Assembly: GCF_001866075.3 (NCBI RefSeq)
Contig: NZ_CP063356.1
Span: forward strand, 372,001 to 436,000
DNA: 64,000 nt
Reading direction: 5' to 3'
DNA from: Anaerobacillus isosaccharinicus
GTDB lineage: Bacteria; Bacillota; Bacilli; Bacillales; Anaerobacillaceae
Both the position numbers and the translations under genes were made by a program. A model generated the notes under the pieces. It ran no database searches, was not told where the DNA came from, and saw only the letters and a list, made by a program, of their open reading frames with translations. Below, piece after piece: positions 36,243 to 64,000 of this stretch. Positions within the stretch are counted from its first letter, which is position 1. Each line of letters begins with the position of its first letter.

Positions 36243-36246
36243 CTAG

Positions 36247-37638: not shown

Positions 37639-37642
37639 CTAG

Positions 37643-41763: not shown

Positions 41764-42401
41764 CTACAAATACCTTCTATGAATTTTCTTCCCATCATAC
41801 GAAAACACAATCTGCTTCTCTGAAACTTGCGATTCCATATGCACCGTTCTGCCCCATAGTTGATGGAGGTATGGCATTACTTTCTCTAAATATTTGATAT
41901 CAAGCTCGATGCCTTCATAATAATGAGTAAGGTAAAGTTCTCCGTTTTTCATGTAATCTCCATCGGTGACAGAGATGAATGGAAAACCACCGTTGACTCG
42001 CATACTAATCAGCTGATCGCGAACCTCCTGCCATGCTTTGTCAACGATCTTGTAATCGCGGCCTTGCTTTTGAAAGAGGTACATATCTTCACGTAGAACA
42101 AGATCCTTCGTTAAATAATTTCGGATGAATGAAATATCACTTTCGATCTCCCTCACTTCAAACATCTTCTCACGACCACTGTTCGGTTGAACGCCACGCT
42201 TTATCATTTCTTCTGTTGGGTTGTTGTAGCGTTCTTCAATGTCTTCAAAAATCTTCAATCCTAAATAATACGGGTTGATCTGAGTTTTCGATGGTTGCAC
42301 TACACCAGCATTTAGTTTAGCAAATTCAATTGCTTCGTCTGAGGTGAGATCCATCTCCCGTAAGATGCGCTGATGCCAATACGAAGCCCAGCCTTCGTTC
42401 A
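41764..42401 (-). pseudogene. spoVR: spoVR, 3' half (split by an integrated element)
   Basis: The frame encodes the last 212 or so residues of SpoVR (stage V sporulation protein R, involved in spore cortex formation): [36 protein letters not shown], then [17 protein letters not shown] and the C-terminus. The 5' half is at 63,844 onwards. The junction is the direct repeat 42,378-42,401, which encodes (M)NEGWASY. Before excision only a fragment could be made, for example from ATG 42354. After excision the reading frame is continuous, so this is a reversible split rather than a dead gene. Confidence 0.9.
42378..42401. repeat. Left attachment repeat of the spoVR element
   Basis: A 24-bp sequence is identical to 63,858-63,881. 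It contains a palindrome, ACGAAG and CTTCGT around CCCAGC, as expected for a serine recombinase site. It codes for NEGWASY of SpoVR in both places. Confidence 0.9.
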
Positions 42402-42411
42402 GTAAAGGTGC

Positions 42412-43176
42412 TTATTTTAGCATTTGATTAATAAAGGTATATAATAAATTAATATCACTATTTTTAATTGTGTTTTCACAGATCCAATTATTATCTTGAA
42501 TGGAAACTTGATTTGCCTTACCAGGTTTAAGAACATTTGATATACAACCAACAATTGCTTTTAATTCATCTGCAGATTTCCACTTTTTTTTGTATACATG
42601 ATCAACAGTTTCAATATATGCTAGTGCATGTTTACACAAGTCCGGATATTCTATTTCAGCTGCTTGTACTAATAAATTTTCAAGAGTTCCAAAATCAGCA
42701 TTATTAGGGAATACATATATTCCTACTTTCACTTTTGCACTGGTGATTAATACTTTTCCAAGTCTTGCTTCCTCAAAAGCCTTTGAAAATTTCTCCTCTT
42801 CAATATTAATTAAAGCATCTTTTACTTTATTAAATTTTTCATTGGCTATATATTTATCAGCATCACAAAAAACTCCTACACCTATTAATTCAGAAACATT
42901 AATATTTCCAAGTGTTACATCAATTGCAGAAAATATTTCTGTTTCTCCACCAGCCGATTGAATAGCTATTGAATATTCATTAGATTGGTAAAAGAAAGGT
43001 ACAGGCATTCTTTTTAATAAATCTCCTTGAAATGGAAATTTATTAGGGATAATTCTCTTCCAAAAAGGATCTAAATCATCCATATCCCTAATTAAATTTA
43101 AATTAAATAGTTTTAACAATCTGCCTATAGCAGCCACGTCATGCGGGCCTTCAACCACAAAATAAAAATACTTCAC
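42412..43176 (-). CDS. TOPRIM-domain protein (partner of OLD-type ATPase; PARIS-like)
   Basis: The 254-residue protein has a TOPRIM-type pattern: the acidic start YFVVEGPHDVAAIGRLL (Glu at about 9) and the DxD in VGVFCDADKY (about 101-103). DUF3226/DUF4435-like proteins of this size act as nuclease partners of ATPases. It starts with GTG directly behind the TAA of the ATPase gene (TAAGTG), so the two are translationally coupled. The stop codon is 11 bp from the attachment repeat. Co-directional spoVR follows, without a visible terminator. Together with the ATPase it resembles the AriA-AriB (PARIS) arrangement, or an OLD nuclease split into two chains. Confidence 0.75.
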   Translation of the reverse strand: MKYFYFVVEGPHDVAAIGRLLKLFNLNLIRDMDDLDPFWKRIIPNKFPFQGDLLKRMPVPFFYQSNEYSIAIQSAGGETEIFSAIDVTLGNINVSELIGVGVFCDADKYIANEKFNKVKDALINIEEEKFSKAFEEARLGKVLITSAKVKVGIYVFPNNADFGTLENLLVQAAEIEYPDLCKHALAYIETVDHVYKKKWKSADELKAIVGCISNVLKPGKANQVSIQDNNWICENTIKNSDINLLYTFINQMLK

Positions 43177-44301
43177 TTACCTCACATCCTGCCCAAAATG
43201 GTACCTAAGTTCTTTTAATTTTTCACCAGAGAACCTTTTCACAATATTTCCATCCTCTGATTGTTCCAACCTATAAACGCTAATTTTAGATATCTCCTCA
43301 GTTGCACCAAGTACTGCATCAATCGCTTCTAGACTATGGGTTGTTGCAAAAATTTGAACATTAAATTCTTTACTAGCATTTACAAGCCAACTAAAGTATT
43401 CACCTAGAACACTTGTATGAATACCTGTTTCTAATTCATCTATTAATAGAATACCATTTTGGCACCTTACCAACGCAGATGCTAAAGTTAGTGCTTTTCT
43501 TACACCATCTCCAAACATTGTTACCGGTGTTAGTCCCATAATTTTATGATCTATGAAAGGAATAGGGAAACTACGGTAATTATTAGAGGATTTTGGCATT
43601 AATAGTTCTATTCCAACGATATTATTATCAAAGTACTTTAAAGCATTTATGACTTTAGGACGATATCCTGATAAAATAACCTCATTTAAATCTCTAACCA
43701 TATAAGACCTAACTCTATGATCAATCGGAGTTACAAAATTTGATGAGATAATTTTTTCTTCATCTTTAAAAAAAGGAATTCTATCCTTTTCTGTAAAAAA
43801 AATATTCTTATTATATTCCTTCTTGCTTGAATCCTTATACCGAACATTAACTTTCTGGATTCTTTGTTCTTCATCACTTGAGTCACTAGAAACGATTTCT
43901 CCATCGAGATCATTTTCTTCAAACAAACTATTCTGCCTAGCTTCAAAATAAAGTTCCTCTTCGAGTTTCATTCCTATCTCTATTTCTTTTCCATTTAATA
44001 AGAATGAAATTTCAATATCATCCCTTTTTGATTGATAATTATCTAATGGAAATAACCAACTAATACATTCAAATAATGATAACCTACCTACAGAAGGCAT
44101 TGCATTTCTTTCCCTTAGGCGAGCAACTTGAAAAATATTAGCTGGAGAAGCTGGGTTTAAAAATAATTCAACCGCTTCTAAGACTGATGTTTTTCCTGAG
44201 TTATTGTTTCCAACCAATAGGTTAATTTCATTTAAATTCGTTAGTTTAGCATTTTTTATTCGCCGAAATCTTTTTATAAAAAGTTCTTCTATATGCCTCA
44301 C
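43177..44301 (-). CDS. OLD-type AAA/ABC ATPase (PARIS AriA-like)
   Basis: The protein has about 374 residues with Walker A LLVGNNNSGKTS (about residues 24-35), Walker B ILLIDELETGIHTS (about 280-293) and the H-switch ATTHSLEAIDA. A middle insertion (about 105-180) is charged and probably dimerising. This is the OLD/RecF-like fold of defence ATPases (AriA, GajA, Septu). It lacks its own TOPRIM domain, which is supplied by the next gene. I start at GTG 44301 because AAAGGAGTG is well placed; the ORF could begin further upstream. The genes are alone in their operon. Confidence 0.8.
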   Translation of the reverse strand: MRHIEELFIKRFRRIKNAKLTNLNEINLLVGNNNSGKTSVLEAVELFLNPASPANIFQVARLRERNAMPSVGRLSLFECISWLFPLDNYQSKRDDIEISFLLNGKEIEIGMKLEEELYFEARQNSLFEENDLDGEIVSSDSSDEEQRIQKVNVRYKDSSKKEYNKNIFFTEKDRIPFFKDEEKIISSNFVTPIDHRVRSYMVRDLNEVILSGYRPKVINALKYFDNNIVGIELLMPKSSNNYRSFPIPFIDHKIMGLTPVTMFGDGVRKALTLASALVRCQNGILLIDELETGIHTSVLGEYFSWLVNASKEFNVQIFATTHSLEAIDAVLGATEEISKISVYRLEQSEDGNIVKRFSGEKLKELRYHFGQDVR

Positions 44302-44927
44302 GCTTATCACTCCTTTCAAAATCACTATTTATATTCTATTATAAACATTAAATTATCACTTAAACAATTTGTCTTTGATTAATGAAAGCAAGAAGTTTGG
44401 ATTTAGTTAAAAACTACATCTGTAATCTACTAGCTTTGTTGTATTACTTCTACTGTAAGTAATATTTTCCCTCTATTATTTTTGGATAATTACTGAATAA
44501 AAGTAAAAAATTACTTTCAAACGAATACATTTCAAAATGCTTCTTACCTTCATATATTATAGGAAGCATATTCACTCTTTATTTTAAGGATTTGTAATCA
44601 TAATACTAAAATACTTTTAAAAATGCCAATTTTTAAATAGATTTCCTCTCTTCTGTACTTTTTTAATTTTTTCCTAAATACCGAACCCTTTTGAATAGTT
44701 TCAACCTAATCCCCGAAACCATGTTTATAACCTTGTCCACCTGTACATAATAATGAACATGTACAAGCCTATTCCAGCTAGATCCCTTGATGTTATTGGT
44801 CGGAGTTTAGGCACACTCGGGATCCCGTGCTGGCCTATTCGCCGAGTAATTTTTAGTCCGTGATTGCCTAATTACCGAATAAGTAAAAATGAAAAAACCA
44901 CTTGTTTGGACAAGTGGGCATAAATTA
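44302..44927. other. Intergenic stretch with terminator at 44,892-44,917
   Basis: The promoter of the OLD/TOPRIM pair should lie near 44,330-44,600 but was not assigned. At 44898-44917 CCACTTG and CAAGTGG pair with a 6-nt loop, and the minus strand continues with TTTTTT, so it ends the recombinase operon. Around 44,770-44,860 an imperfect inverted repeat occurs (TATTCCAGCTAGATCCC against GGGATCCCGTGCTGGCCTAT). No gene was seen. Confidence 0.5.
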
Positions 44928-45677
44928 TTAAAAGAGTAAGTATTGGGTACCTCTTTTCTCCTCCAAAGCTTCATTATGTGTGAACTGGAAAGATGGAAGA
45001 TCGTACTTAAATCTTACTTCAACTTTAAATTTTTGATTGCTTATTTTTTTGATTTCAATCGCCGACACAATTTCTGTTACTAACAAGCGCCATTCGTGCT
45101 TACAAATGTCTTCTCGTTGCTTTTTTAGAGCATTTATTATAGGTAGCCAATAGTTTTCATTTGTGAGAACTTCATTAATTAGCTCTTTTTGTTTGCTAAT
45201 ATTTTGGAGCTCTTGTTCAAGAAACTCAACTTTCTTAGATAGATCAATCTTAAAGAGTGTGAAGGATTCGATAAAATTTCTGTTATTTTCACTGAACTCT
45301 AAATGAGTTAGTTTGTGGATTTTATATTCAATTTCGCGTTGCTTTTTATTATTTTGCTCAATGCCGTCTTGAATAATTTTATATTTTTTATTCAATTTAT
45401 CAATATCATTGTTAAGTCCAATTTTTATTTTATTTACAAGACTAGTACCAGCAAACCTATTCAATTCAGAACGAATTCTTTCTTTAAGGACATTATCAAA
45501 TACTTCCGCCTTAATACGAAGCTGTTTGCATTTGTCACTTTTACATGCGTACAGTCTATTACCAGATGTTCTACCTTTCGTTTCTTGGTTGATTGGTGTT
45601 AGGTGGTTATTACAAGAGGTACATATTGCTACATTTCTTACGAGGTAATTCGTATCTAAGAACTTGGGATCAACCAT
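44928..45677 (-). pseudogene. Large serine recombinase, C-terminal part
   Basis: The 249 residues contain the zinc-ribbon CTSCNNHLTP...CKSDKCKQL (about 18-50) and a long coiled coil (about 90-190), both typical of the C-terminal region of large serine recombinases. It starts 4 bp downstream of the N-terminal part (45,682). The middle (the end of the recombinase domain, normally about 60-80 residues) is missing, so a deletion removed it. It may be made as a fragment. The gene is probably dead. Confidence 0.7.
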
Positions 45678-45681
45678 TTTC

Positions 45682-46296
45682 TTACCCCTTTTTTCGACAA
45701 CCTAACCCTTGTTGATACATTTCAAAGATTTTTTCAACTAAGATGATTTCTTCAGGAAATTGTAAAAACTGTTTACGTTTTTTATCGTATTTGTAACCAA
45801 AAGGAGCTCTACCACCTTGATGTTCACCTTTTTGAGCACCTGTTTCTCCTTTTGATCGAACTCTTTCACGAAGTTGATCAATTTCAAACATGCCTAAAGC
45901 ACTTTTAATAAAGCCAAAAACATCTCCAGGCTCTTCGTCAATTGCAGGAGTAGGAGATAAGATTACGATTGGCTTTCCAGCAGCTGCAAAAAGTTTACGA
46001 ATTTCATCTTGTTCCATCGGATCACGACTAATACGATCAATGCGAAAGACAATAACGAAATCAAATAGATCTTCAGCTAAATCATCTAATAGTTCGTTAA
46101 GTCTTTGCCTTTTTGACAGTTCTTTTTTTGATGCTGAAACTGCTTCATCGGTATACTTTTTTATAAGATTTAAACCATAATCTTCGACAAACTTTTCAGC
46201 TTTATCTATTTGCCCATCCATGTCTTGCTTATCTGTTGAGTATCGACCGTAGAAAGCACATCTAGTATTGGGTTGCAGTAATTCATTAATATCCAA
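45682..46296 (-). pseudogene. Large serine recombinase, N-terminal catalytic part
   Basis: The 204 residues carry the resolvase domain: the nucleophile Ser in YGRYSTDKQDMDGQID (about 20), FVIVFRIDRISRDPMEQ (Arg cluster) and KSALGMFEIDQLRERVRSKG. The sequence then ends abruptly at GLGCRKKG, where full-length relatives continue with a DNA-binding region. It overlaps the end of the upstream recombinase by 11 bases, so the two were a translationally coupled pair. Confidence 0.75.
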
Positions 46297-47717
46297 TTTT
46301 ATATGCCTCCTTTAAGCCTGTAAAAGGATGCTTATAAATGAGATCAATATTTTTATGATCAATTCTTATTTCTTTAATTACATCATTTAAAATATACTTT
46401 GAATTCAAACCAATTTTCTCAATTGTTATTTTATTATTTTTTATATAGTTTCGTATGTGGTCCAATCGATGTGGCAATTTATTAAGCTTAAATATTTCTT
46501 CGGAGATTGTATTAATCTCGTTCATTTGAATTTTTATTTTCTCATACTGTACTGTTACCTCTTTAGCTATCTCTAAATCTGTTTCAATAAGTTTATCAAT
46601 CTGTTCAAAAAGTGTTGCTTCACTTTCTTTAAGTTTATTTTCTATAGTAATTAGCTGCTTTTCTAAACTGGCAATACTTGATTTTCGATATCTTTCAATT
46701 AAATTTACATATTCAGTTTCTAAAAGAGCTTTTATAAAGACTAATGCGTCTTTCATTATTTTCGTTTCTATTTCATCTTTTGGGATTTCTTTTTTACATT
46801 CATTACATTGATAGTAAGGACGATACAGATTTCCTAAATAGAGATTATCATTACAAGTTGAATATAATCAACCCTTCTAGTATGTAATCAAGGTCTAATT
46901 TCACTCTTTTTTTATTATGTTTCTTTGTTTTTTCTAAGGTATCGTATACTCGCTGCCATTTGTCCTTATCAACAATTTTAAGTGATTTATATTCTTGTTC
47001 ATATTCTTGTTCATTAAAAGTTCTTGTTCTAATACCTTTATATGTTGTGTTTTGAAGTAACTTTCGTATGTAACTTGTTGACCATGACCGATCTGGATCC
47101 TTGACTTTTGCATATTCCGATAGGTCATGCAGGGTTTTACCGTTTTCAATCAAATCATATAACTCTTTAATTAATTCAAGCTGTTTTTCATTGCGTTTAT
47201 ATTTATATTCACTTTTTTTGTCACTTTCATAACCATAAGGTAGATTTCCGGGATCTTTACCGGCCCGAAAGTTCGTTATGTTTTTTGCTCGTATACGCTC
47301 ATGAATTTGCTGTCCTTCTAGTTGGACCATGACCCCCATGAAAATTTCATACATTTCGCCATTTGTTGAATATGACATCGGTAGCTCTTCATCCGCTGTA
47401 AAGACGACATTAATATTATGTTCTCGTAGTATTCGATAAAGTTTTATATGTTGGACAACATTTCTCGCAAGCCTATCTCTTTTGTACACTAGTAGATTTT
47501 TTATTTTCCCCTGCTTAACTAAAGAAATGACGTTCTGAAGTTGCTCTCTACCTTCAAGTTCCGTCTTTCTTGCTGATATCGCATCATCAGTAAACTCTTT
47601 TTCAATAATCAGGTGATTTTTAGTTGCTGCTTCAAAAGCTTTATAGCGTTGCATCTCAAGTGAGTTTTCTTGCAATGTTGTTGAACGACGATAATAAGCA
47701 ATAGTTTGCAAATACAT
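46286..47717 (-). pseudogene. Large serine recombinase with a frameshift
   Basis: The first frame (46851-47717) holds the resolvase domain with Ser in AYYRRSTTLQENS (about 12), LVYKRDRLARNV and IHERIRAKNITNF, and most of the recombinase domain. Near 46,855-46,866 it shifts. The next frame continues with CNDNLYLGNLYRPYYQCNECKKEIP (zinc ribbon) and then the long coiled coil read in 46286-46756. One base is missing in the ATATTCAACTTGTAATG region. Full length would be about 480 residues. It overlaps the next recombinase, and the arrangement recalls ccrA-ccrB pairs of staphylococcal cassettes. Confidence 0.75.
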
Positions 47718-47765
47718 GCACCCCCTTAAACCTTTTTATAAATCTTTATGCCTAGACTAATGGTG

Positions 47766-47924
47766 CTAGTCCTTTTTATCTGAATTTTGATTTTCAAAAT
47801 GATCAAGCAATTCTTTTTTAGCGATACCTACCCAAATATCAAACCACTTCTCATGGGAATTAGGATCATATTCATATGCACGCGAGCGAATTTCAAATGG
47901 CTGTTTTGAACTTTCTTTACTCAT
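47766..47924 (-). CDS. Small acidic protein upstream of the recombinase pair
   Basis: ATG 47924 follows AGGTGGTG and opens 52 codons: MSKESSKQPFEIRSRAYEYDPNSHEKWFDIWVG and onwards, ending NSDKKD. It is in the same orientation as the two recombinases and 48 bp before them. Small proteins in this position may be recombination directionality factors, but no family match is known to me. It is divergent from the XRE gene. Confidence 0.55.
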   Translation of the reverse strand: MSKESSKQPFEIRSRAYEYDPNSHEKWFDIWVGIAKKELLDHFENQNSDKKD

Positions 47925-47961
47925 AATCACACCACCTACATTATTTTTTGGAGGTATATCA

Positions 47962-48336
47962 ATGAAAAATTTCGGACAAAAGTTACGAACTATTCGAGAG
48001 CAAAAGAATATTGGTTTAAACCAATTGGCTCTTAGACTTAATGTTTCTTCAGGTTATTTAAGCAACCTGGAAAGAGGAAAAACAGAAACTATTCCTTTAT
48101 CACTACTTGAAAAACTAGAAAAAGAACTAGAATTTTCTCAAACAGAGTTTTTTAAAAACAATGATAAAGATAATAAAGCTACCTTTAATGAGACCCACTA
48201 TCGAATTGAGAGATGTAGCGAACAACTAAAAGTTTTAGAAAACAATCGACCTGAGCTAACTCATTATCTCCTTTCATTAGTAGAACAAGGAATTGAGCTT
48301 GCCCATAAGGAGTCCTCACATAAAGAAATCCATTAA
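47962..48336 (+). CDS. XRE-family transcriptional regulator
   Basis: The 124-residue protein has a Cro/CI-type helix-turn-helix at the N-terminus: KLRTIREQKNIGLNQLALRLNVSSGYLSNLERGKT (about residues 6-40). A helical C-terminal region follows. The ribosome site TTTGGAGG is well placed. It is divergent from the small gene and recombinase operon (37 bp between starts), so it probably regulates both directions, as in prophage-like elements. Confidence 0.85.
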   Translation: MKNFGQKLRTIREQKNIGLNQLALRLNVSSGYLSNLERGKTETIPLSLLEKLEKELEFSQTEFFKNNDKDNKATFNETHYRIERCSEQLKVLENNRPELTHYLLSLVEQGIELAHKESSHKEIH

Positions 48337-48450
48337 TACTTGGTGAAATTATCTTCATCAAGTTTTTTGTTGATCTTATAATTTCTTAAACTTTTCAATT
48401 TTATTCACTATGTGGGTAATTGTTTTTCATGATGAATAATACTCAAAAGA

Positions 48451-48493
48451 AAAAGAGAGTCTAATCCTTAAATAAAGGAAAAGACTCTCTTTT
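48451..48493. terminator. Strong bidirectional terminator
   Basis: AAAAGAGAGTCT (48451-48462) pairs with AGACTCTCTTTT (48482-48493), and AATCCTT with AAGGAAA inside, giving about 18 paired bases. It separates the convergent XRE and 48,492 genes. Confidence 0.8.
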
Positions 48494-48716
48494 AATTTTC
48501 TTTCGTTATTTTCACTTTAATGCTTTTTGCTTGTTCTTCACCAAATTCATTTTTGATCATGTTGTTAATGGCGGCTTCTTTTACTCGCATTTCCCAACTT
48601 AATAATTTATCAGTTAAAGCTGCGGCAATTTCTTCATTTTCTATTTCATTCAAAGCGGAGAACGATATTTTTCCTGATGAACTATTCAGAGTAAAACGAA
48701 CGTTTACCTTTTCCAA
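48492..48716 (-). CDS. Hypothetical 74-residue protein
   Basis: The product begins MEKVNVRFTLNSSSGKISFSALNEIENEEIAAAL and is of mixed charge with no known domain. It uses TTG 48716 behind a very strong GGGGGGAGG. It is divergent from the intact recombinase at 48,841, which makes it a candidate regulator or directionality factor of that enzyme. Function is unknown. Confidence 0.55.
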   Translation of the reverse strand: MEKVNVRFTLNSSSGKISFSALNEIENEEIAAALTDKLLSWEMRVKEAAINNMIKNEFGEEQAKSIKVKITKEN

Positions 48717-48840
48717 CTGCCTCCCCCCTCATTAAACGTTATGCTGGAAGTAGAGTAGGACAACCCAAGAAACTTGTATCAATTCATTTTTTATTTGACT
48801 TGTTCATATATATTAAACAAACAAGAAAGGGGTACATATT

Positions 48841-50298
48841 ATGGCTGATGAACTTAACAACATACGTATGATAGCCCTTTATTGTCGTGTTTCCACTGAT
48901 GAACAAGCGAGAGAAGGTATTTCTCTTCATGAACAACAAGAACGTTTAAAAGCATACTGCCGAGCGATGGGCTGGCATACTGAAGTAACTATTTATGTAG
49001 ATGATGGCTATTCAGCTAAAAATATTGAACGACCTAAATTAAATGAACTAATTCGTGCTGTTAAAAATGGTGAAGTATCTCAAGTTATGGTAACAAAATT
49101 AGACCGAATTAGCAGGAAGCTACTCGATTTACTTAACCTTATTGATCTTTTTCAAGAACACAATGTATCGTTTATTTCAATTAGTGAATCTTTCGATACA
49201 AATACTCCTTCAGGGAGATTAACTTTGCAAGTACTAGGTGCCGTAGCAGAATTTGAGCGTGAACGTATTCGAGAACGAGTTTTTGAAAATATGTACCACG
49301 CTGCCACTACCGGTAAGTGGTTAACACAAAGCCCTTATGGATACAATTTAGTCGATAAGGAGCTAGTATTTGATGAAAAAGAAGCCGAAGTGGTAAAACG
49401 AGTGTTTAATCTTTATTTGGAAAAAGGATTAGGTTACTATGCCATTGCAAAACAACTAAATGAAGAAGGTATCCCTTCAAAATATAAAAAAGATTGGTCA
49501 ATCCGTGCTGTGAAACTAATGCTTACGAACCCTGTTTATAAAGGTACTTTTGTTTGGAACCGCAAAGACTCTAGTAAGAAAAAGCGAACAGATAAAAAGA
49601 ATGATGAATGGATAGTGATCGATGACTGCCTACCGGTAATTATCGACAAAGAAGAATGGGAAGACGCGCAAAAGAGAGTGAATGCCAAACAAATAGCTCC
49701 TCGGGCAAAGACTAGCCCTCACTTATTAGGTGGTATTTTAAAATGTGGCAAGTGTGGGGCAAGCATGAGTATAGGCTGGTCAGGTTCAAAAAACAACAGG
49801 TATCGTGTCTATCGCTGTTCCGCAAACAAAAATAAAGGCACTTGTACAAGTAAACAATACCGTGCAAATGAAGTTGAAGATTGGTTTAAGCAAGGTCTTG
49901 TTCAATTATTTGAATTCTCAACAAACCAAACAAAAACCACACTCGTTGAACAAGTTTTGCAATCGCAAAAAAAAGATGCTGAACAAGCAGTTCAAAATGC
50001 GAAAGCAAGATACAAAAGAAAAGTTGAAGCATATACTGCTGGGCTTATTGAGCTAGAGGATTTAAATGAAGAGAAAGTGAAAATGGAAAAGATCATCAAT
50101 AACGCGAAAAGAGATGACGACAAAAAAGAAATCAATATAGAACGACTTGAAAAGCAGCTGCAAAAGCACATTCAAAATATATTACAATCTCTTGACGCAT
50201 TATCAATACCTGATGCAAAAGCATTTTTACAAACGATTATTGAGAAAGTAATTCTGATTAGTGAGGGGGAATTGGAGATTGAGTTTCACAGAATATAA
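48841..50298 (+). CDS. Large serine recombinase, intact (SpoIVCA-like)
   Basis: The 485-residue enzyme has a resolvase domain with the nucleophile Ser in YCRVSTDEQAREG (about 19) and TKLDRISRKLLDL, then GAVAEFERERIRERV. A recombinase domain follows (about 170-290), and a zinc ribbon (KCGKCGASMSIGW, then YRCSANKNKGTC, about 303-340). A coiled coil (about 370-440) closes it. It resembles SpoIVCA of the skin element in size and layout. It is the only intact recombinase in the element and thus the likely integrase/excisionase of the spoVR split. The ribosome site AAAGGGG lies 8 bases upstream. Whether it is sporulation-controlled cannot be decided; a sigma-E-like -10 CATATATATT occurs at 48,805. 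Confidence 0.9.
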   Translation: MADELNNIRMIALYCRVSTDEQAREGISLHEQQERLKAYCRAMGWHTEVTIYVDDGYSAKNIERPKLNELIRAVKNGEVSQVMVTKLDRISRKLLDLLNLIDLFQEHNVSFISISESFDTNTPSGRLTLQVLGAVAEFERERIRERVFENMYHAATTGKWLTQSPYGYNLVDKELVFDEKEAEVVKRVFNLYLEKGLGYYAIAKQLNEEGIPSKYKKDWSIRAVKLMLTNPVYKGTFVWNRKDSSKKKRTDKKNDEWIVIDDCLPVIIDKEEWEDAQKRVNAKQIAPRAKTSPHLLGGILKCGKCGASMSIGWSGSKNNRYRVYRCSANKNKGTCTSKQYRANEVEDWFKQGLVQLFEFSTNQTKTTLVEQVLQSQKKDAEQAVQNAKARYKRKVEAYTAGLIELEDLNEEKVKMEKIINNAKRDDDKKEINIERLEKQLQKHIQNILQSLDALSIPDAKAFLQTIIEKVILISEGELEIEFHRI

Positions 50299-50352
50299 AA
50301 AAGGCAAGCTTTGGAGAGTCCTGCAAAATGGGGACTTTAAAAGGAAAAAAGA

Positions 50353-50390
50353 AGTTGCCAGTTTCAATTTGAAGAAACTGGCAACTTTTT
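50353..50390 (+). terminator. Terminator of the intact serine recombinase
   Basis: AGTTGCCAGTTTC (50353-50365) pairs with GAAACTGGCAACT (50374-50386), followed by TTTTT. It lies about 55 bp behind the stop codon. Confidence 0.85.
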
Positions 50391-50439
50391 CATTATGTAA
50401 TAGAGATGCACCTCTTACGAGTGCATATGTAGTTGTTCT

Positions 50440-55015: not shown

Positions 55016-55281
55016 TTAGTCATAAAGCGAATTAACAAACTGTTCACTTTTAGCCAACCTCTGATAAAGACTAACTTCCCAATAATTATAACCATATATT
55101 TCAGCAGTACCTTCCGCATGATCAATTAGATCAAGAACAATCTGATTTTTATCCAATCGATTTAATTTCCGCCTTAATGTTCTTTCTATCGTAGAAATAA
55201 TACCAGTTGAATGCTTAGAATATTTAGTTAGTAAATCAAGTTTTTCAAAATGTGAATTATTATCAAGTATGACTGCTATTC
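55016..55281 (-). pseudogene. HNH nuclease, 3' part, cut off by transposon copy 2
   Basis: The 88 residues IAVILDNNSHFEKLDLLTKYSKHSTGIISTIERTLRRKL, to ...EQFVNSLYD, look like the helical tail of the HNH protein whose start is at 59,274. The apparent initiation codons (MTIFETADR) belong to the transposon end. Removing 55,282-58,690 and one CTATTC duplication joins it to the 5' part but in a different frame, so a one-base shift is also present near the junction. Confidence 0.6.
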
Positions 55282-58200
55282 TGTCCGCAGTCTCGAAAAT
55301 TGTCATATTAACTTGCAGTGACGATATGACGTGGCTTGTTATGTAGAGTCACACTCATTGCCACTGGCGATTGATTTAGTCACTTAATTTGGCGCATCCA
55401 AAGCGAAGAACCTAGATGAAATTTCTAAGATCGTTTTTAAACACTTCAACTACTTTTTCTAATGCTACCTTTTTCTCCAATAAATCGTGTATTTCAGCTC
55501 TTAATTGATCAACCATAGTCTCCATTTCGCTTGATCCCATCTTCAAGCTGGTTCTTATAATCTTCTAAGTTATTAATCATCTTCGATTTACTTTCCCTTT
55601 ATAATGATTACACGGTGAATGTGGATTCTCCACAACTTTATTTCCTTGAAGAAATGCATCTAAAAGACTTTGACTACATAGAGTATTAATTTTTCTCGAA
55701 CTCTAGCAAAGTTATGAATTGCCTGAATGGCTTCTTCTGAAAAAATCTCATATGGTGTTTCAACTACTATCAATTGATGTTTAATGTAAGCTTTTGTTTC
55801 TTGCTCAGTTAGCCCTGTTACTTGGTATCGCATTTTGTATCCTTTGATCGATAGCTTCTAGGTGCTTCACTTTAATTGATTTCGTAGACTAGGTTGCCCA
55901 ACGACAATAAGGGTAAGAGGAGACATAGGAATTTTCTTTAAAGTTAAGTATGAAGCGTAACTCCTTGCAACATCGGCTCCAGAAATGGTGTGCTTCATCA
56001 CTAACAATAACTGGTGTTTTTCTCTCATTCTCATAAATATCTAACATTAAAGATTGGTACTGTCGTTTCGCTTCGGTTGATCGAAATGTAGGTGAATTCC
56101 AAAGTTTTTGTAAACTTCTCGATAAAATAGTTTAGGAGTTAGTTCAGAGTCACATAAATATAAATAACGGTATTTTTGTACGATCTAGTTTTTGTACTAA
56201 TGATCTACAGCCGTTGATTTTCCATACCAGCCTCACCAGTTAATAAGCAAAACTGTCGATTTTCAAAGCAGCGTACTTCTAATCGAGCTGTTGCTTCATT
56301 GTAGCTATAGATGAGCTATATAGTTGTTCAATTAAAATCTCACGAGTAAATGGAACACCTTTCATTTTCGAAGAAATCTAACATTCGCTACGCCCCCTTG
56401 ATTTTTCTTTCCATTGGACAAAACTTGTGGTTCCTAGTTGTTTTCGCTTTTCCTCATCCTGCTGTTTTTTCAACCGATCTAAATAATCCGATACAGCCGT
56501 TGGTGAGGACTTTTCATCATATGGTTCATGAAGTTTTGAATGACTTTGATTTCGCAGTTCAGCTGGTTTGCATCTGGGTAGCGCAAGTCATCTTTCCAAA
56601 CCTGTACATAGGATAAATCAAATGGGTTATAACGAACGATAATTTTTTACCCCGTAAAGACGAATCTACATCGTAAAGATTTCCTCTAATTCAATCACCG
56701 CTGTTTTTCTAACTGAACGGTCTTCTTCCCATAAAGATTTCTTTTAACTCTTCAGAGAAAGAAACCGTTGTTCCTCTTGTTTCGCTTCATATCGCTTTTT
56801 GGTGTTTTTGTCCAGTCCTGCGGGTGAACCCGATGATCGTAGGCATCCAACCATGATCGCCAAGTACTCATTTAACGATTTTAATGTCGTCAACTTGCCT
56901 TGATTAATGAGAAGATTTGCTTCACCGGTAAAGCTGAATCAACATATTGGAAAAACTTTTCAACCTTGCCTTTTGATTCTGGCGAGAGTACGGGCTTGCA
57001 TGGATTAACTTCGTCCCCATACGCGCGCAAATCACTTTAAACTGTTTTGCGCTATAGACAGAGCCATTATCACAGAAAAACAAATGGGCACACCATACTT
57101 TAATACCGCTTTTTGAACACATCTTTCAAGACGTGGATAACGTTCTTCAAAAAAGAATTCAGCGTGCATAATCCGACGACTATAATCATCAATAATTGCT
57201 ATTAAGTATGCTTTCTTCTTCGCCCCGAATGATTTGGATCGGGTAAATAAAGGGCATGTTGTGTATCTGCTTGCCAACAATCATTAGGAGCTGCGTGTTC
57301 GAAATGTTGAAATTCTTTCTTTACCGCACGGTAAATATCTCGCTTACTCCAACCCTGTTCTTGAAAATATCTTGAGAGCGTACGTGTTTGAGGATTAACC
57401 TAACCGGAACACGTTCTTCTAATTCCAAAATTCGAATTACCTGTTCCACACTACGGCTAGGAAGTTCTTTTCTTAATTCCACAGCTCAGTTTCAATATAG
57501 AGTGGTCCATATTGAAGACTTCCCTTTTTCTCTTTTTTGAGGCTTTTAATGCATCAAATCCATCTTTTTCATAGTTTTTCAAATATCTTTCTAATGATCT
57601 AAGGCTAATTGTGGTTTTCTCACTGCCTGGGATGGAATATCTTTGTGCTGCAATCTCCTTTTAAAAGGGTTATATTTCTCCCCAGCATTAAGCTTTCGCT
57701 GAACAACTTGGGCAATTAACCCAAAACGAAATGCTGCGATTTCATTGCGTAAATTTTCATCCACTCGTTTTCTCCTTTTTACAAATGTAAACACTCTTAA
57801 TTTTCTTCTGTTTTTAAGAAAGGAAAACAGACATATTTTTAGGTAGAAAAAGGGGTAGAAACCAATTTTATGCAATTGAAACGACATTCCTGGTGGCTAC
57901 CAGAATAACCCTTTGTGTTGACGAAGATTGAGTGATGAGAATAACTTTCCTTTTCCAGGAATATGTTTTTTTCCATGAAACAAAATCTTGAAGTAAAGCT
58001 CACACTCTTGGATAAGACTAATTCCCTTACGGTAAAGTTCAAGTAAATCATCACCTGCTTGGTAATCATGCGCCAATCTAACACGTTGCTTGGCAATCCA
58101 CTGATTAAAGCGAGAGGTTAATTTCATTTTCCAACGACGTAAAGTCCGTAAGGAAATGATTGGGACTGTATCAATGAGAAAGTCGCTTAGTGAGATGCGT

Positions 58201-58690
58201 TAACGGAACTCCCATTAACAACCACCGTGCAATAAATTCACGAAAAACATTTGAAAAACGAGACCAAGGAGTAAGAAAAACAATGGAGTAACGAAAACGT
58301 ACGATCACAAGAACCACAACGCCTTCTTAACACAAAGATTATCGAGGACTGGTGTTTCATATGAACCCATCTTTTATATTTGCCGTGTTTTTTCATTCTT
58401 CTACCGCAGCACGGACATCGTAATTCAACATCATACTTATTAATGGGATCATTATACTTCTTGATAGAACGGAAGCGAATCTAGTAAAATAATCATAGTT
58501 AGTTAGAGGTCATTTGTCCAGCCGCCAAGCTATTGAGACAAATGACCTTTTCCTTTTCTAAAGAGTTGTCAACTCTAACAGACCATTATACTATGGTCGT
58601 TAGAGTTGACGGCTCTTATATTATATTTTTTACGATCAAAAAAGGCAGCTAAAATTTTACCAATTACGACGTTGGAGGTGACCCCCAACA
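55282..58690 (-). mobile_element. TGT...ACA transposon, copy 2, degraded and inverted
   Basis: The element runs TGTCCGCAGTC (55282) to GACCCCCAACA (58690) and carries its own 6-bp duplication CTATTC (55276-55281 and 58691-58696). It is the reverse complement of 28727-32147 with many indels. Pieces of the coiled-coil protein (about 55,430-55,590), the ATPase (about 55,610-56,380), the transposase (about 56,390-57,760) and the zinc-finger protein (about 57,897-58,440) are recognisable. None is intact. It interrupts the HNH gene. Confidence 0.85.
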
Positions 58691-59274
58691 CTATTCATAC
58701 CACTGCTAAAAAACAGTGAATAATCTGCTATAGGAATACTATCTTCGTATGTTATATCACAGAATAAGAATTGTTTTTCTGTTGGTAAGTAATCAAAATA
58801 AAAATTAATGAATGTTCTATTATTCTTTTGATCAATCCATTCATCCTTTTTTTTTCTATTACATTGAGCACAACATGGAAATAAATTAATTGGCATTACA
58901 CTATATTCTGGAAATAATGATTTTGGTAAATAGTGATCAAAAGTATCAACCATGTTTATCCCACAATAATGACACTTATCACGAAACTCATTTGATTGTA
59001 ATAATATAATTTTCTTCTTAATTAAATCTAGGGGTTTGGTTGGCGCTTCATAACAATGAAGAAGGGCATCTTTAAGATCAATATTATCTGTATAATCTAA
59101 TTTATATTGAAGTATTTCAGCAAGTTCATCTACTGACTGTTCATATTTTAAATATTGAGATTCTATCATATCGTAAGCAAATTTCAATATATTTTTTCGA
59201 GACTCTTGTTTTGCATCAACTATTGTTTCAAATTCTTTAAAATATGATGTTCTTAATGGCACTAAATTTTTCAT
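58691..59274 (-). pseudogene. HNH endonuclease (PtuB-like), 5' part
   Basis: From ATG 59274 the frame encodes about 195 residues up to the transposon (...LFFSSGMN). The HNH motif is clear: CHYCGINMVDTFDHYLPKS (two Cys, then the catalytic His in FDHY, about 99-113) and FPCCAQCNRKKKDEW (second Cys pair and Asn, about 130-142). It is two bases downstream of the ATPase stop. ATPase plus HNH in this order is the Septu (PtuA-PtuB) arrangement, in which PtuB is the nuclease. The gene is broken by the transposon and by a shift, so this system is probably inactive here. Confidence 0.75.
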
Positions 59275-59276
59275 TT

Positions 59277-60683
59277 TTAATCCTTCTTTGTTTCCGCTAA
59301 AAGTGTTTTAATATACATTTTTGCTGAAAAACTTAATTTATTTGAAAATAGATTTAAAATCTCACTATACGTTAGTTTATTGACCTCAATTAACCTTCTA
59401 AATAATTCTTCATACCTTTTATCGTTGTTTACCGTTCCAAAAATATCTTCTGTAATTGAAGATATATCTCCTCCAAAACATTCTATTCCTAATTTTCTCA
59501 CAACAGGTTGGTTTCCAATTCTTTCAAATACATTCACACGTTTAGAGGGGATCTCCTGCAATATTATAGGTGAGTGAGTTGAAATTATTGCATATGAATT
59601 ATAAACTTCTAGTAGATTTGATAACATATTAACATGATTTGAAATAGCGTTAGGATGCAAATATAATTCTGGTTCGTCAAAAAGTAGTAATGATTCATTT
59701 TTTATATTTGAGATAACATCAGTTATTGTTGTTAATATCATATTCTGTCCAGAACTAAGTTCTTCTAAGTATGGTTTACTTTCAATAAAACTCAGAATTT
59801 CAGGGGCAATAACATTAGATAGTATTTTTCTCCAATCATCTATTCTGTCTAATTCTTTTATTTGTTGAATTGAATTCTCTAACTTCTTTTCCATTTGATA
59901 GGTATTCATTAATTTTTTTTTGCTCCAAAGACCACAATATCTATAGCTATAATACTTTGTAGATTTTGGTTTACTAAAATTATCAAAGTAACTATATGAT
60001 ATCGTAATAACTCTACTGAATATAGGGGTCTCGGGTTTGAAATTTCCCCTGTTATTCTTCATTCCACTTAATGCTTCTGCTAAATTGGCTAATAGTTGAG
60101 TTTTTCCAGTTCCATTTTTACCGATAATAGCATTGATTCTATACGGAAGTATATCTTTATTAAAATCAATTTCTACTTCATGAGCACTATCTGCATTACT
60201 TAACTTGGTTTCAAATTTAAATTTAAAAATGTTATTAGGTTTTATTTCGCTAGAATCCCGAAATAAGTATTTTGCTTCTTGGAAAGCCTTCCTAGCTTCA
60301 CTATTTCTAAGTAGAGAGGTTTCGAATCCATCAATTGTCAAAATCATACTGGCCAAATCTTCATTATAAATAACGTCATTTAAATTAGTTAATATTTTTT
60401 CATAAGTTGCTTTTTCCAAATCTAGTAGCTTTTCATAAAACTCAACACTTTGTCCTAAGGAATAAAAATTATCATCAAGTTTTTCGAACAAATTAGGTAT
60501 AATTGTGGTTGCAGAATTCTCGTCAAGAATTTTGATATGTCCCAATTCAACTTCCTTCATATTTTGATCATAATAAGTTATATCATGTGTTGTTTTAAAA
60601 CCATAATCATCCCAACTAGAATAATGTAATACAATACACGGAAAAACACAGTTCTTTGGTAATGAACCCCTATAGAATCTCAT
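59277..60683 (-). CDS. AAA family ATPase, Septu PtuA-like
   Basis: The 468-residue protein starts MRFYRGSLPKNCVFPCIVLHYSSWDDYGFKT, an N-terminal domain common in defence ATPases paired with HNH proteins. Then follow Walker A IIGKNGTGKTQLL (about 185-197), the ABC-type signature ELSSGQNMILTTI (about 310-322), Walker B SLLLFDEPELYLHP (about 333-346) and the H-switch ISTHSPIILQE. It is a SMC/ABC-like ATPase that senses infection and drives the partner nuclease. The frame is intact. Together with the broken HNH gene it is an orphan now. Confidence 0.8.
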   Translation of the reverse strand: MRFYRGSLPKNCVFPCIVLHYSSWDDYGFKTTHDITYYDQNMKEVELGHIKILDENSATTIIPNLFEKLDDNFYSLGQSVEFYEKLLDLEKATYEKILTNLNDVIYNEDLASMILTIDGFETSLLRNSEARKAFQEAKYLFRDSSEIKPNNIFKFKFETKLSNADSAHEVEIDFNKDILPYRINAIIGKNGTGKTQLLANLAEALSGMKNNRGNFKPETPIFSRVITISYSYFDNFSKPKSTKYYSYRYCGLWSKKKLMNTYQMEKKLENSIQQIKELDRIDDWRKILSNVIAPEILSFIESKPYLEELSSGQNMILTTITDVISNIKNESLLLFDEPELYLHPNAISNHVNMLSNLLEVYNSYAIISTHSPIILQEIPSKRVNVFERIGNQPVVRKLGIECFGGDISSITEDIFGTVNNDKRYEELFRRLIEVNKLTYSEILNLFSNKLSFSAKMYIKTLLAETKKD

Positions 60684-60751
60684 AATGTCACCCCCGAAAT
60701 TAGGAATATCTAATAATATTGCCCCTTATGTTTTAAATAAAACAACTAATA

Positions 60752-61303
60752 TTATTCTTCAAAATATTTAGCTACTTCAGTTATAATCCTTATTGTATGC
60801 CCTGTTAAAGAAACTGAGGCAACTAAAGAAAAAATAAACAAAAAAGTACTAATTGGAAATAAAAAGTCAATAGGTATAATAAAATATTCAATATTTTGTA
60901 CAAGAATATATAAAACTAGACCAACTAAAATAGTTGTTCCCCAGCTAGAGGCAACAAACCAAAAAGGAAACAGCAAATCATGTAGAGTCTTTTCTTTTAG
61001 TAGAAGCCCAATTAATTTCCCATTAGTTAATGCAGTCATTACTGCCAATGATGCTAGAACTATTGCAAATAAAGAAGCTCCTACTGTTATATAGATGTAA
61101 ACAATTTTATCTATCATTTTGGTATAAACACATATTGAAGTGAAAAAGTAAAATCGTAGTAAAACTACAAAAATTACCCCAATAATTGCCAAGAAAGTAT
61201 CCCATGAAAAAAAGATATGTCTGAGTCCAAAATTAAACAATAGATATAAAAAACTTGAACTATCAGGATTATAAAATTTATCCTTCCTAGAGAGGTTACT
61301 CAT
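60752..61303 (-). CDS. Four-helix membrane protein, possible RexB-like effector
   Basis: I start at ATG 61303 (MSNLSRKDKF), which overlaps the upstream gene by 8 bases, with AAGGA 9 bases before it. The 183 residues contain four hydrophobic segments (about 34-56, 67-95, 112-138 and 144-168) in two hairpins, short loops, and a short charged C-terminus. No family is recognised. The position behind a RexA-like gene and the four-helix topology resemble RexB of lambda, an ion channel that depolarises the cell on activation. This is a structural analogy without clear sequence match. Confidence 0.55.
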   Translation of the reverse strand: MSNLSRKDKFYNPDSSSFLYLLFNFGLRHIFFSWDTFLAIIGVIFVVLLRFYFFTSICVYTKMIDKIVYIYITVGASLFAIVLASLAVMTALTNGKLIGLLLKEKTLHDLLFPFWFVASSWGTTILVGLVLYILVQNIEYFIIPIDFLFPISTFLFIFSLVASVSLTGHTIRIITEVAKYFEE

Positions 61304-62147
61304 TTGTGTCAATCCTTGGTTTAGCATTGTTAAACATAATTTTTAGTAATCTGAAGACTTCGTTAATATTCCCCTCTTTAAGTTTAAATTCTCTTTGATT
61401 AATCATCGTATTTGAACTTATAATTTCAGAGTTACCTTCGCGATTAATAATTACAGCTCTTGATTCAGGAACATAACCTTCCTCAAGCAAGGAAAAACCT
61501 TCATCAACAAAATCCCCTTCAATGTTTACACCATCTTCATTTTCAAACTTTACATTAAGCTTCTTTGATTTTTGGTCAGCAATAATTTCATGGATGTTTT
61601 TATAGCTTTTTCTTTTCTTAAAATTAGGGGGGATTATTTCAAATTCTAAAGCTGTTACTTGAAGGGCTTTCCTTAGTAAATTTCTATATTCATTCTTCTT
61701 TGGATACGGGACAATTACAACTTGACCTATAACATAATCTATTCTTTGAAGAATTAAATCAAAATTTTCAGCAAATTGGTGTTTACTAATATTTGAATTC
61801 TCTTCAAATATTAAAATCTCCTCTTTCGGTTCATATAAAAAAAAGCTGTAATAAACTTTTGTAGGAATTTCGAAATCACCAACAGAAGTTCCTTTTAATA
61901 CCTCAGTAGTTTCATTTCTTGCCTTACACAATCTTCCTAATAAGAAGCTATTCTTTTCATCATCTAAAATAATTCTCCAATTCCATAGACCATTTGTAAC
62001 TATACAATCTTCTGTATAACTAGCGTTTCTAATCGCTGGCGGTATCTTCTTAATTAGATCTGGAACATTTGTTCCAAAGATATTTCCGTGAATATTTAAC
62101 TTTGCTGCAATTAAATTTAGTTTCTTTTTTTTAATATTAATTTTCAC
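61296..62147 (-). CDS. Soluble protein of unknown family, RexA-like in size and context
   Basis: The 283-residue protein has no membrane segment. The middle (YYSFFLYEPKEEILIFEEN, QVVIVPYPKK, TALEFEIIPP) and end (KLNVKFENEDGVNIEGDF) alternate strands as in RexA-type proteins. It overlaps the next, membrane protein gene by 8 bases, so the two form a translational pair. Its start is uncertain: GTG 62147 lies 4 bp from the IS4 copy B insertion and has no ribosome site. On the other side of the IS an ATG behind GTAGGG starts MTDKINH but is out of frame. The promoter is cut off by the IS. Confidence 0.45.
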   Translation of the reverse strand: MKINIKKKKLNLIAAKLNIHGNIFGTNVPDLIKKIPPAIRNASYTEDCIVTNGLWNWRIILDDEKNSFLLGRLCKARNETTEVLKGTSVGDFEIPTKVYYSFFLYEPKEEILIFEENSNISKHQFAENFDLILQRIDYVIGQVVIVPYPKKNEYRNLLRKALQVTALEFEIIPPNFKKRKSYKNIHEIIADQKSKKLNVKFENEDGVNIEGDFVDEGFSLLEEGYVPESRAVIINREGNSEIISSNTMINQREFKLKEGNINEVFRLLKIMFNNAKPRIDTNE

Positions 62148-62150
62148 TAG

Positions 62151-63543
62151 TGTTGCATTAATTAAATTCCACTATTAAAAATACTCAAAATGTTCAATTA
62201 TTTACTTCCGTGCATAAAAAAAGTCCTTTATAATGGATAAGTCAGGTGGTAATCCCGTCCAAATCCAATAATAAAGGAACAATCACATGGATAAGATTAC
62301 ACGAAAAACTTCATTTGGACAATGGTTTTCACCAATAAATCTCGAATTATTTGATGATCAGGTGAAAACATTGAAATTAGATTTCTACACGAAAAAACTT
62401 ACGACGGAATCATTTTTAAAATTATTACTCTACGCCCAGCTCGAAGAAGTAGAAAGTCTTCATGCGCTGAGTGACTGTCTTTTTGATGACCAGCTTCAAA
62501 AAGGTGTCAACCTTGATTCGATCAGTATCTCTCAGCTCTCACGGCGTTTGAATGGCATGAATCCAGATCTATTTCAAAGGCTTTTTCTGGATTTAGTCTC
62601 GAAAATCCATGCGAAAACACACTACACCAAGCTAATCATGCCGCTAAAGATCATTGATTCAAGCACATTGCCACTTAATTTAACCAATCACAAATGGGCA
62701 AAGTTCCGCAAAACAAAAGCGGGGGTAAAGCTACATTTGCGCCTTGTTTTTATGGAAAAAGGGATTTCCTACCCTGAAAAGGCTGTGATAACAACGGCAA
62801 AGGAACATGATCGTGGTCAACTAGAAATCATGGTAGATGACAGAGAATGCATGTATGTATTTGACCGCGGTTATCTTGATTATGAGCGCTTTGATCGCAT
62901 GACTGATGAAGGCTACTTTTTTCTTTCTAGACTACGTAAAAACGCAGTTATACGGGAAGTTTACGAATTTAAACTCCCAGAAAGTTCGGCTGTTTTATCG
63001 GATCAAATGATCTTAATTGGAACACCACAAAAACGTGCTGAAAACTACTTTCGCCTTTTAAAAGTAATTGATTCAAAAGGAAATGAACTTCATTTAATCA
63101 CAAATCGGTTTGATTTAAGTGCTGAAGAAATTTCTGAGATGTATAAGTCACGTTGGGCGATTGAGTTGTTTTTCAAATGGATCAAACAGCATCTCAGCAT
63201 CAAAAAGTTCTACGGTCAAAGCGAATGGGCAATCCACAATCAAGTGTTTATCGCATTAATTGTTTTTTGCCTACATGTTCTAGCTCAGCACGAAACGAAA
63301 AGCAAGCGAAAAACCTTACAAATTAGTCGCTACTTAAAAGCGGCCTTGTGGAAGCCAGCACATATCTGGCTTCGAAAAATTGAAGGAAAAGCCGTTCCAT
63401 AATAAACAAACTGTCGTCGTCCCTAATGTCTAATTGTAAATAAATGCCAAATGGATGGAGCCACCTTTGCTTAGGTATTTACTTTTTTGGCTCTAAACAG
63501 GAAAAACCTTAAGACTGAAAATTCAGTCAAATTTTATGCAACA
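62151..63543 (+). mobile_element. IS4-family element, copy B (1,393 bp)
   Basis: TGTTGCAT and ATGCAACA ends with CTAG on both sides (62147-62150 and 63544-63547). It stands in opposite orientation to copy A and differs by one A in the 5' leader run. It separates the RexA-like gene from its upstream region. Confidence 0.9.
62287..63402 (+). CDS. IS4-family transposase, copy B
   Basis: Identical 371-residue protein to copy A, with the same DDE and YREK motifs and an intact frame. Because it is antisense to the RexA-like operon, it also blocks transcription from the original promoter. Confidence 0.92.
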   Translation: MDKITRKTSFGQWFSPINLELFDDQVKTLKLDFYTKKLTTESFLKLLLYAQLEEVESLHALSDCLFDDQLQKGVNLDSISISQLSRRLNGMNPDLFQRLFLDLVSKIHAKTHYTKLIMPLKIIDSSTLPLNLTNHKWAKFRKTKAGVKLHLRLVFMEKGISYPEKAVITTAKEHDRGQLEIMVDDRECMYVFDRGYLDYERFDRMTDEGYFFLSRLRKNAVIREVYEFKLPESSAVLSDQMILIGTPQKRAENYFRLLKVIDSKGNELHLITNRFDLSAEEISEMYKSRWAIELFFKWIKQHLSIKKFYGQSEWAIHNQVFIALIVFCLHVLAQHETKSKRKTLQISRYLKAALWKPAHIWLRKIEGKAVP

Positions 63544-63632
63544 CTAGTGATTAATTTTATCTGTCATATTATCCCTACCAATACTTTTTTATATAGTAGT
63601 AATACTACAATATGACAAAAAATCCCTTCTTT

Positions 63633-63788
63633 CTACACTATTTTTTTTATTCTAAATACCTTACTAGGATTACATTGTGTAAGTTCGTTTTGCGAGTTCT
63701 CAATTTGTTTTTGATTTCCCTTTTTCACAGGCCACCAGATAAATTCATTTTTAATGTTAGTAGGTACTTTTACCTCTAATATATACAT
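63633..63788 (-). CDS. Small 51-residue protein at the element right end
   Basis: ATG 63788 follows GGATGGTGAG and opens MYILEVKVPTNIKNEFIWWPVKKGN and onwards, ending KKIV. It is the first gene inside the right end of the element, 70 bp from the attachment repeat, on the strand of the RexA-like operon. It resembles small phage-type proteins, but no family is known. A role as directionality factor or regulator is possible. Sequence 63,544-63,632 has nothing else. Confidence 0.5.
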   Translation of the reverse strand: MYILEVKVPTNIKNEFIWWPVKKGNQKQIENSQNELTQCNPSKVFRIKKIV

Positions 63789-63843
63789 AACTACTCACCA
63801 TCCTTTAATTGACTACTTTTACTATTTCCTACCTTTACATACA

Positions 63844-64000
63844 TCAAGCATCTTTGAAATACGAAGCCCAGCCTTCGTTCATGATCTTCGTTTCTAGTTG
63901 CGGCCAGAAGTACAGCATTTCTTCACGCATCATTGTTAAAACGTCTCGTTGCCAAGGCTCTAGCTCACGGCTGTATTCTTCAATGAATAAGAGAATGTCT
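63844..64000 (-). pseudogene. spoVR: spoVR, 5' half (split by the integrated element; continues beyond window)
   Basis: The frame reads [23 protein letters not shown] in the SpoVR sequence and then runs into the element as FKDA, ending at a TGA (63844-63846). The point of divergence is the 24-bp repeat 63,858-63,881. It joins in frame to 41,764-42,401 on excision. The start codon is outside the window. Before excision the N-terminal product is a truncated protein. Confidence 0.9.
63858..63881. repeat. Right attachment repeat of the spoVR element
   Basis: Identical 24 bp to 42,378-42,401, in the same orientation. The distance between the two is 21,480 bp, which is the size of the circle released on excision. 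Confidence 0.9.

Follow-up and report, generated by a model that had tools for sequence, protein, structure and literature searches.

The window, the whole stretch of 64,000 nucleotides analysed here (positions 372,001 to 436,000 of contig NZ_CP063356.1 of Anaerobacillus isosaccharinicus), carries the sporulation gene spoVR in two pieces, separated by an island of 21,480 bp (~21.5 kb; Table 1). At each island junction lies one copy of a perfect 24-bp direct repeat, AATACGAAGCCCAGCCTTCGTTCA, as a preliminary description of this DNA had stated; it is the sole perfect direct repeat of at least 20 bases reported between 41700 and 64000. When up to 3 mismatches are allowed, the window matches it twice and 100 shuffles not at all, and with up to 2 mismatches it occurs exactly twice in the genome (5,227,144 bases). 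The 5' half of spoVR meets a stop a few codons inside the island, and the 3' half opens at the same codons. The window edge is not the end of the 5' half, whose bounds had been given as 63,844-64,000. When 41001-42401 is joined in silico to the DNA past 63881, a single open frame of 472 aa from stop to stop results, which matches the intact SpoVR of relatives; both halves are open and without lesion, and the scarless rebuilding proposed earlier is borne out to this extent. A PF04293 profile search of the 5.23-Mb single-contig genome, rated 100% complete, detects the two spoVR halves and nothing else, so that the other intact copy that could have made the split irrelevant is not seen. Short direct repeats at both junctions, and a precise join that restores a gene assigned to the mother cell in the available text of PMC4191935, are as in sporulation gene-intervening elements.

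Table 1. Features of the island and of its spoVR flanks (window coordinates).
Feature	Position	Strand	Basis
spoVR 3' half	41764..42401	-	PF04293, join
attR (right attachment site) core, 24-bp repeat	42378..42401	-	repeat search
attR element-side arm AAGCACCTTTACTG, with counterparts in most related elements	42400..42413	-	site alignment
AAA ATPase + DUF3226 pair, candidate defence system PDC-M38	42412..44325	-	domain/defence scan
recB-like serine recombinase, broken into two frames	44928..46296	-	ORF/domain scan
recA-like serine recombinase, broken, two frames	46286..47717	-	ORF/domain scan
Xre-type helix-turn-helix protein	47962..48336	+	same place in 23/37 close recC loci
74-aa divergent open reading frame (ORF), likely recombination directionality factor	48492..48716	-	position, conservation
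Control region between small ORF and recC	48717..48840		motif inspection
recC, intact 485-aa large serine recombinase (Resolvase, Recombinase, zinc ribbon)	48841..50298	+	domain scan
Displaced 3' end of PDC-M01 HNH gene	55016..55306	-	sequence match
Septu-like candidate PDC-M01; ATPase gene open, HNH partner interrupted	58657..60683	-	domain/defence scan
Two ORFs, no Pfam, PADLOC or PHROGs match	60752..62147	-	library scans
DDE transposase, identical protein at 36388-37503 (-)	62287..63402	+	protein comparison
attL (left attachment site) element-side arm AAAGATGCTT, inverse of attR arm save one base	63846..63855	-	site alignment
attL core, 24-bp repeat, encodes NEGWASY	63858..63881	-	repeat search
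spoVR 5' half	63858..64000, on past window to ~genome 436,650	-	PF04293, join

The island encodes an intact site-specific recombinase of its own. This gene, recC, is open and retains all three domains of a large serine recombinase, in agreement with the SpoIVCA-like enzyme reported earlier, and it is likely, judging from the comparisons that follow, to be the integrase/excisionase of the island. Its matches in the PDB are 9dxh and 9dxd, YokA of SPbeta, which we take to be SprA. No close relative of recC was seen in the phage collection (best match 36.5%), and none matched among plasmids at a limit of 1e-40; one of 21 relatives on viral contigs is close (75%), on a 4.8-kb contig holding a five-gene module. 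The two recombinases at 44.9-47.7 kb, recA and recB, were considered as the excision enzyme and rejected: both are broken, and no counterpart was found in the island of Anaerobacillus arseniciselenatis. They are likewise broken in three related loci (L047, L050, L059) and were not found in several others.

A search with recC of contigs from one genome per species gave 236 relatives, of which 80 loci were kept; the first 37 (L035-L071, at least 42% identity to recC) form the close set, where the presence of recC is a matter of design. It is open in the window and in all 37 (that of L035 lies at a contig end and has 444 aa). The recombinase goes with its target gene: spoVR is split at about codon 264 in the genomes of 33 of the 37, counting L042, where the 5' half alone was detected. 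Three loci (L054, L061, L066) have an intact spoVR, and L036 looks unsplit within its locus, its genome lying outside the search. Relatives of recC (66-67%) are present in three Geobacillus genomes whose spoVR is split.

Upstream of recC and divergent from it lies a small ORF of 74 aa, likely to encode the recombination directionality factor. An ORF of the same kind, recognised by position and pattern, accompanies recC in all 37 loci that include upstream DNA (the window and L036-L071); in most it spans 67-97 aa counted from the likely start, and as called it reaches up to 130 aa. Fourteen of these were matched at E <= 1e-3 by the window's ORF as query, and identity to it ranges from 16 to 91% in an alignment of 29 rows (29 of the 37 loci; L036, L038, L042, L044, L056, L063, L067 and L068 left out). 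Three members scanned gave no Pfam match, and the one scanned gave no PHROGs match. The predicted structure of the 74-aa protein is a beta hairpin with one long helix (mean predicted local distance difference test score, pLDDT, 85; predicted template modelling score, pTM, 0.59). For size, the directionality factor CD1234 of the skinCd element has 72 aa (PMC5025042, available text) and GirX of the gin element 42 aa (PMC5595907, available text).

The DNA between these two genes contains motifs of the kind expected of mother-cell promoters. Before recC stands a sigma-E-like TCATTTT (48784-48790) followed after 14 nt by CATATATAT (48805-48813), and before the small ORF GGTTGTCC/GCATA; SpoIIID-like motifs are TAGGACAACC (48756-48765) and TTAAACAAAC (48813-48822). 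The sigma consensuses behind these assignments are general background. Since the patterns were written after inspection of the sequences, their counts measure conservation and are not a blind test. Of the 37 loci, 16 have the sigma-E-like pattern ahead of recC (shuffles: mean 0.3, maximum 2), 28 have CATATA[ATC] (mean 2.0, maximum 6), and 18 have GGTTGTCC-N-GCATA upstream of the small ORF (0 in 200 shuffled sets). In a count over 35 loci, in four of which (L036, L038, L056, L067) the start of the small ORF is misplaced, the recC strand has RRACAAMC in 23 (shuffles 1.2, maximum 7) and the SpoIIID consensus WWRRACARNY, as generally known, in 13 (2.5, maximum 6), and CATANNNT exceeds its shuffled counts on the small-ORF strand (21; shuffles 6.7, maximum 14). 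The upstream region of spoVR itself has TCAT-N17-CATAAATT in all five genomes examined. The genome of the window has SpoIIID and an unsplit sigK. SpoIIID is known to activate spoIVCA (PMC517825, available text).

The ACGAAG/CTTCGT arms described earlier are present about a 6-nt centre in the repeat; the wider recombinase signal lies outside the repeat, in the arms AAGCACCTTT and AAAGATGCTT. Element-side arms resembling AAGCACCTTWR and AAAGRTGCTT are found in most of the aligned sites (19 attL and 17 attR; a stretch of N displaces the coordinate of the L027 attR). For 16 attR arms the leave-one-out scores range from 3.5 to 24.0, and the same place in intact spoVR scores at most -11.9 in six of six cases. 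GGCTG lies within the shared core in 10 of the 11 elements having both sides (that of Brevibacillus is one base off there), so that strand exchange most likely occurs within the Gly-Trp codons of spoVR. Two Alkalihalobacillus loci with intact spoVR (L066, 9610-9660; L054, 9579-9625) have both arms together beside the small ORF, seemingly an unrecombined attP, the site of the free element.

The closest relative with split spoVR is from the same genus, A. arseniciselenatis DSM 15340 (G005 in the draw described below). Its island and that of the window share a single DNA match (E <= 1e-5), of 1.87 kb at 89.6%, which comprises the small ORF and recC. Between the two, the nonsynonymous and synonymous substitution rates (dN, dS) are 0.030 and 0.51 for recC (dN/dS 0.06) and 0.043 and 0.26 for the small ORF (dN/dS 0.17); dS for spoVR is about 2. 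The far lower recC dS, and the confinement of the match to 1.87 kb, suggest that the recC/small-ORF unit has moved between species and been kept functional, and on the same grounds vertical inheritance of the island within the genus was rejected. Because the spoVR dS is near saturation, the low dN/dS of that gene says nothing about selection after the split.

The association was followed through 397 genomes drawn from the order, of which 380 have SpoVR (genomes of the draw have G numbers; G000 is the window's own). Up to four candidates per genome were scored in the SpoVR and recC searches; split candidates were chosen by eye, from E-value and match number among the matches listed, and the 35 chosen genomes were searched again, while nine with weak SpoVR matches alone (best E 1e-4 to 1e-20) were left uninspected. 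Among the matches listed, 11 of the 397 have spoVR interrupted at this site and no intact copy (G000, G005, G034, G154, G155, G178, G232, G247, G313, G318, G390), and all 11 have a full-length recC relative free of stops; among the 366 genomes that have SpoVR but lack recC, no such split was seen. At E <= 1e-120, recC is found in 14 genomes, the same 11 plus G183, G026 and G102. The Fisher p for split versus recC is 7e-19, uncorrected for shared ancestry, and the split genomes span 6 families and 9 genera. Eight close loci were taken to be genomes of the draw (L039=G178, L041=G154, L042=G247, L046=G034, L047=G232, L053=G005, L064=G318, L067=G390). G183 (L129; contig C1, 171-203 kb) has the order 5' half, recC, complete spoVR, 3' half, the island seemingly holding a whole spoVR.

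The most probable explanation (probability roughly 0.8) is that the island is a non-prophage element in spoVR that is excised in the mother cell by RecC and the directionality factor. It appears well supported, within what sequence comparison allows, by the scarless join, the sole spoVR, purifying selection on recC, the arms, the co-occurrence, the small ORF and the motifs; from these we infer that the island is excised and when, what the small ORF and SpoIIID do, and that the host needs SpoVR. A mobile island would integrate site-specifically into the Gly-Trp codons and stay put in growing cells and in the forespore. In the mother cell, sigma-E-type promoters and SpoIIID would switch on recC and the small divergent ORF, and attL and attR would recombine at the shared core with the small-ORF product as directionality factor. 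The 21,480-bp circle would be lost along with the mother cell, the joined spoVR would be made there, and the spore would retain the island, so that carriage should cost the host little.

Several observations count against excision in the mother cell. On the recC strand neither CATANNNT (7/35; shuffles 7.0) nor the sigma-K-type CATANNNTA (1/35; shuffles 1.8) is enriched, the sigma-E-like pattern as written is absent from 21 of 37 loci and the small-ORF pattern from 19 of 37, a stricter form of the host spoVR promoter pattern misses the recC promoter, and the shared ancestry of related loci makes the motif counts overstate independence. Two of the 33 named split genomes (L035, L063) also hold a one-frame SpoVR-family gene, and the 3' piece of Vulcanibacillus reads with stops. 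The exceptions among the 14 recC genomes, two with intact spoVR (G026, G102) and one with split plus whole copies (G183), depart from a split-only pattern and would suit a working integrative element whose excision serves chiefly for transfer, or answers to stress, the rebuilding of spoVR in the mother cell being incidental. The movement of recC between species (dS 0.5 against about 2 for spoVR) and cargo of the mobile-defence sort would fit this too, but mother-cell-type motifs precede both recC and the small ORF, splits were not seen among the 366 recC-less SpoVR genomes in the matches listed, and no transfer genes were recognised among the window ORFs scanned; on balance this alternative is improbable.

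Decay within the island (transposase insertions and two of three recombinases broken, with one cargo gene interrupted) is a further point against excision by RecC, and is what a dead insertion, with spoVR permanently broken and the island no longer able to leave, would lead one to expect. The open frames of recC and the small ORF, their purifying selection, the lesion-free halves of spoVR and the attachment arms make that reading less probable still than an element bent on transfer. That the split is an artefact of assembly or strain is scarcely credible, given a complete single-contig genome and an independent relative with a different island at the same spoVR codon.

Elements in spoVR have been published before: as described in the available text of PMC4191935 and PMC6957869 (citing Abe et al. 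2013), vrin is the spoVR intervening element of Geobacillus thermoglucosidasius C56-YS93 and is placed among elements excised from genes expressed in the mother cell. The island of the window is a further case, and the phenomenon is not new. The likeness is by description: the same gene is interrupted, whereas vrin is described with phage-related genes and no phage structural genes were recognised among the window ORFs scanned. In organisation the nearest relative is gin, which interrupts gerE in Bacillus cereus ATCC10987, and not skin, which is prophage-like; the idea of a developmentally excised element put forward in the preliminary description is thus supported by comparison, with gin in place of skin as the closest model. 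In the available text of PMC5595907, gin is likewise a non-prophage element with three serine recombinases (a girAB pair and a separate girC, one doing the work), a tiny separate directionality factor and defence-type cargo (restriction-modification). It differs in its target gene and in the length of GirX (42 aa against 74 aa here), and the resemblance of a recombinase pair plus a separate third holds for gene layout alone, the recA/recB pair being broken. The skin element of Bacillus subtilis and skinCd of Clostridioides difficile share the large serine recombinase and control by sigma-E and SpoIIID (PMC517825, PMC5025042, available text), but are prophage-like and lie in sigK, which is unsplit here. 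Precedents for the same logic are GirC with GirX and, under sigma-E and SpoIIID, CD1231 with CD1234 (PMC5595907, PMC5025042, available text). SPbeta in spsM (SprA/SprB) is similar in having a serine integrase of the same superfamily and a separate directionality factor, but is an active phage. In a literature search mostly outside subscription journals, no paper was found that deals with an Anaerobacillus spoVR element, with defence genes carried in spoVR or with a spoVR split twice. A genome of the Anaerobacillus group gains a clear case of probable programmed DNA excision, with the likely recombinase and directionality factor assigned by comparative evidence. Following the split gene together with the recombinase through 397 genomes tests, at the level of populations, a mechanism that has otherwise been examined one strain at a time. 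As far as we know, this family-wide evidence is the new part and the mechanism the known one.

The cargo was examined by scans of chosen ORFs of the island and window against Pfam, PADLOC and PHROGs. No phage structural genes were found among the window ORFs scanned, in keeping with gin-like rather than skin- or prophage-like content; the PHROGs matches of ten element ORFs are to integrase/invertase/transposase, repressor, HNH, one weak ABC-transporter and unknown families. A prophage is not supported, given these results, the low phage-collection match and the missing plasmid match of recC. Between the pieces of the PDC-M01 HNH gene lie fragments of a transposase set also present at 29024-30676. 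Defence-like matches occur in five of seven islands, each scanned in part only: PDC-M38 and PDC-M01 in the window, SIR2-HerA in A. arseniciselenatis, bSEFIR and an AbiLi-like system in Peribacillus acanthi, Gabija and PDC-M01 in Schinkia azotoformans, and LmuA/LmuB in Ornithinibacillus; no defence match was found in the two proteins tried for L115 or the one for L116. In spore formers, then, a single sporulation gene has been occupied time and again by islands, several of which have defence genes.

The 35 genomes searched again had been selected for extra or partial SpoVR matches, so that the following counts are not rates. Seventeen have an intact SpoVR and an extra 3' fragment starting near the same codons, and recC at the 1e-120 level is absent from all 17. 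The element-arm score is in the top 0.1% of window positions for 10 of 11 fragments, one of them from the split genome G313; that of G003 is not. The duplicate ends at or soon past the stop codon in six of seven comparisons (five of six genomes), less sharply in G193, and in G003 the similarity to the duplicate stops earlier. In seven loci with both copies (L026, L029, L030, L130, L131, L132, L134) there is no recombinase match at E <= 1e-4 between them with the queries used; L029 has a recB-type C-terminal remnant there. A whole spoVR beside a duplicated 3' half reads as a former island after repair. G313 (L123, L124) has a split spoVR followed by a row of further 3' fragments, the first two open, which suggests repeated rounds of insertion and repair. 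The window itself has, at 230-301 (-), 41.5 kb downstream, a short match to spoVR residues 434-457 (79%), perhaps an older scar of the same kind.

A second break in spoVR occurs near codon 58, at FGK codons. Three loci, L062 (Ferroacidibacillus organovorans), L068 and L069, have a three-piece spoVR on one contig, and the first island of L062 and L069 contains another serine recombinase, with 27.8-29% identity to recC. A break near codon 58 is also seen in L081 (Alicyclobacillus sp. ALC3), L079 (5' piece alone detected) and G337, with distant serine recombinases nearby in L079 and L081. A doubly split spoVR in L065 was rejected: the two pieces overlap and look like a frameshift. The case of L055, whose pieces lie on different contigs and include one stop, is doubtful. 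We lean, by a small measure, towards a wider picture in which spoVR is a standing dock for widespread non-phage defence islands across Bacillota. These would share a mobile recC and a new family of directionality factors under mother-cell control, and would be joined to changing cargo, often of the defence kind, with the host programme keeping the dock harmless. The state would be reversible: once the recombinase is lost, the gene would be whole again, with a second copy of the 3' half next to it, preceded by an old arm. The codon-58 dock would serve another clade of recombinases, and some spoVR genes would come to be in three pieces.

Elsewhere in the window, 12,900-24,000 is very rich in insertion sequences, with a 499-aa DDE transposase in three copies (13026, 14915, 22371) and other transposases. 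At 33380-38436, a transposase gene interrupts a gene set, presumably resembling TnpA/B/C of Tn554, of which the second gene has no match and the first matches Pfam Phage_integrase.

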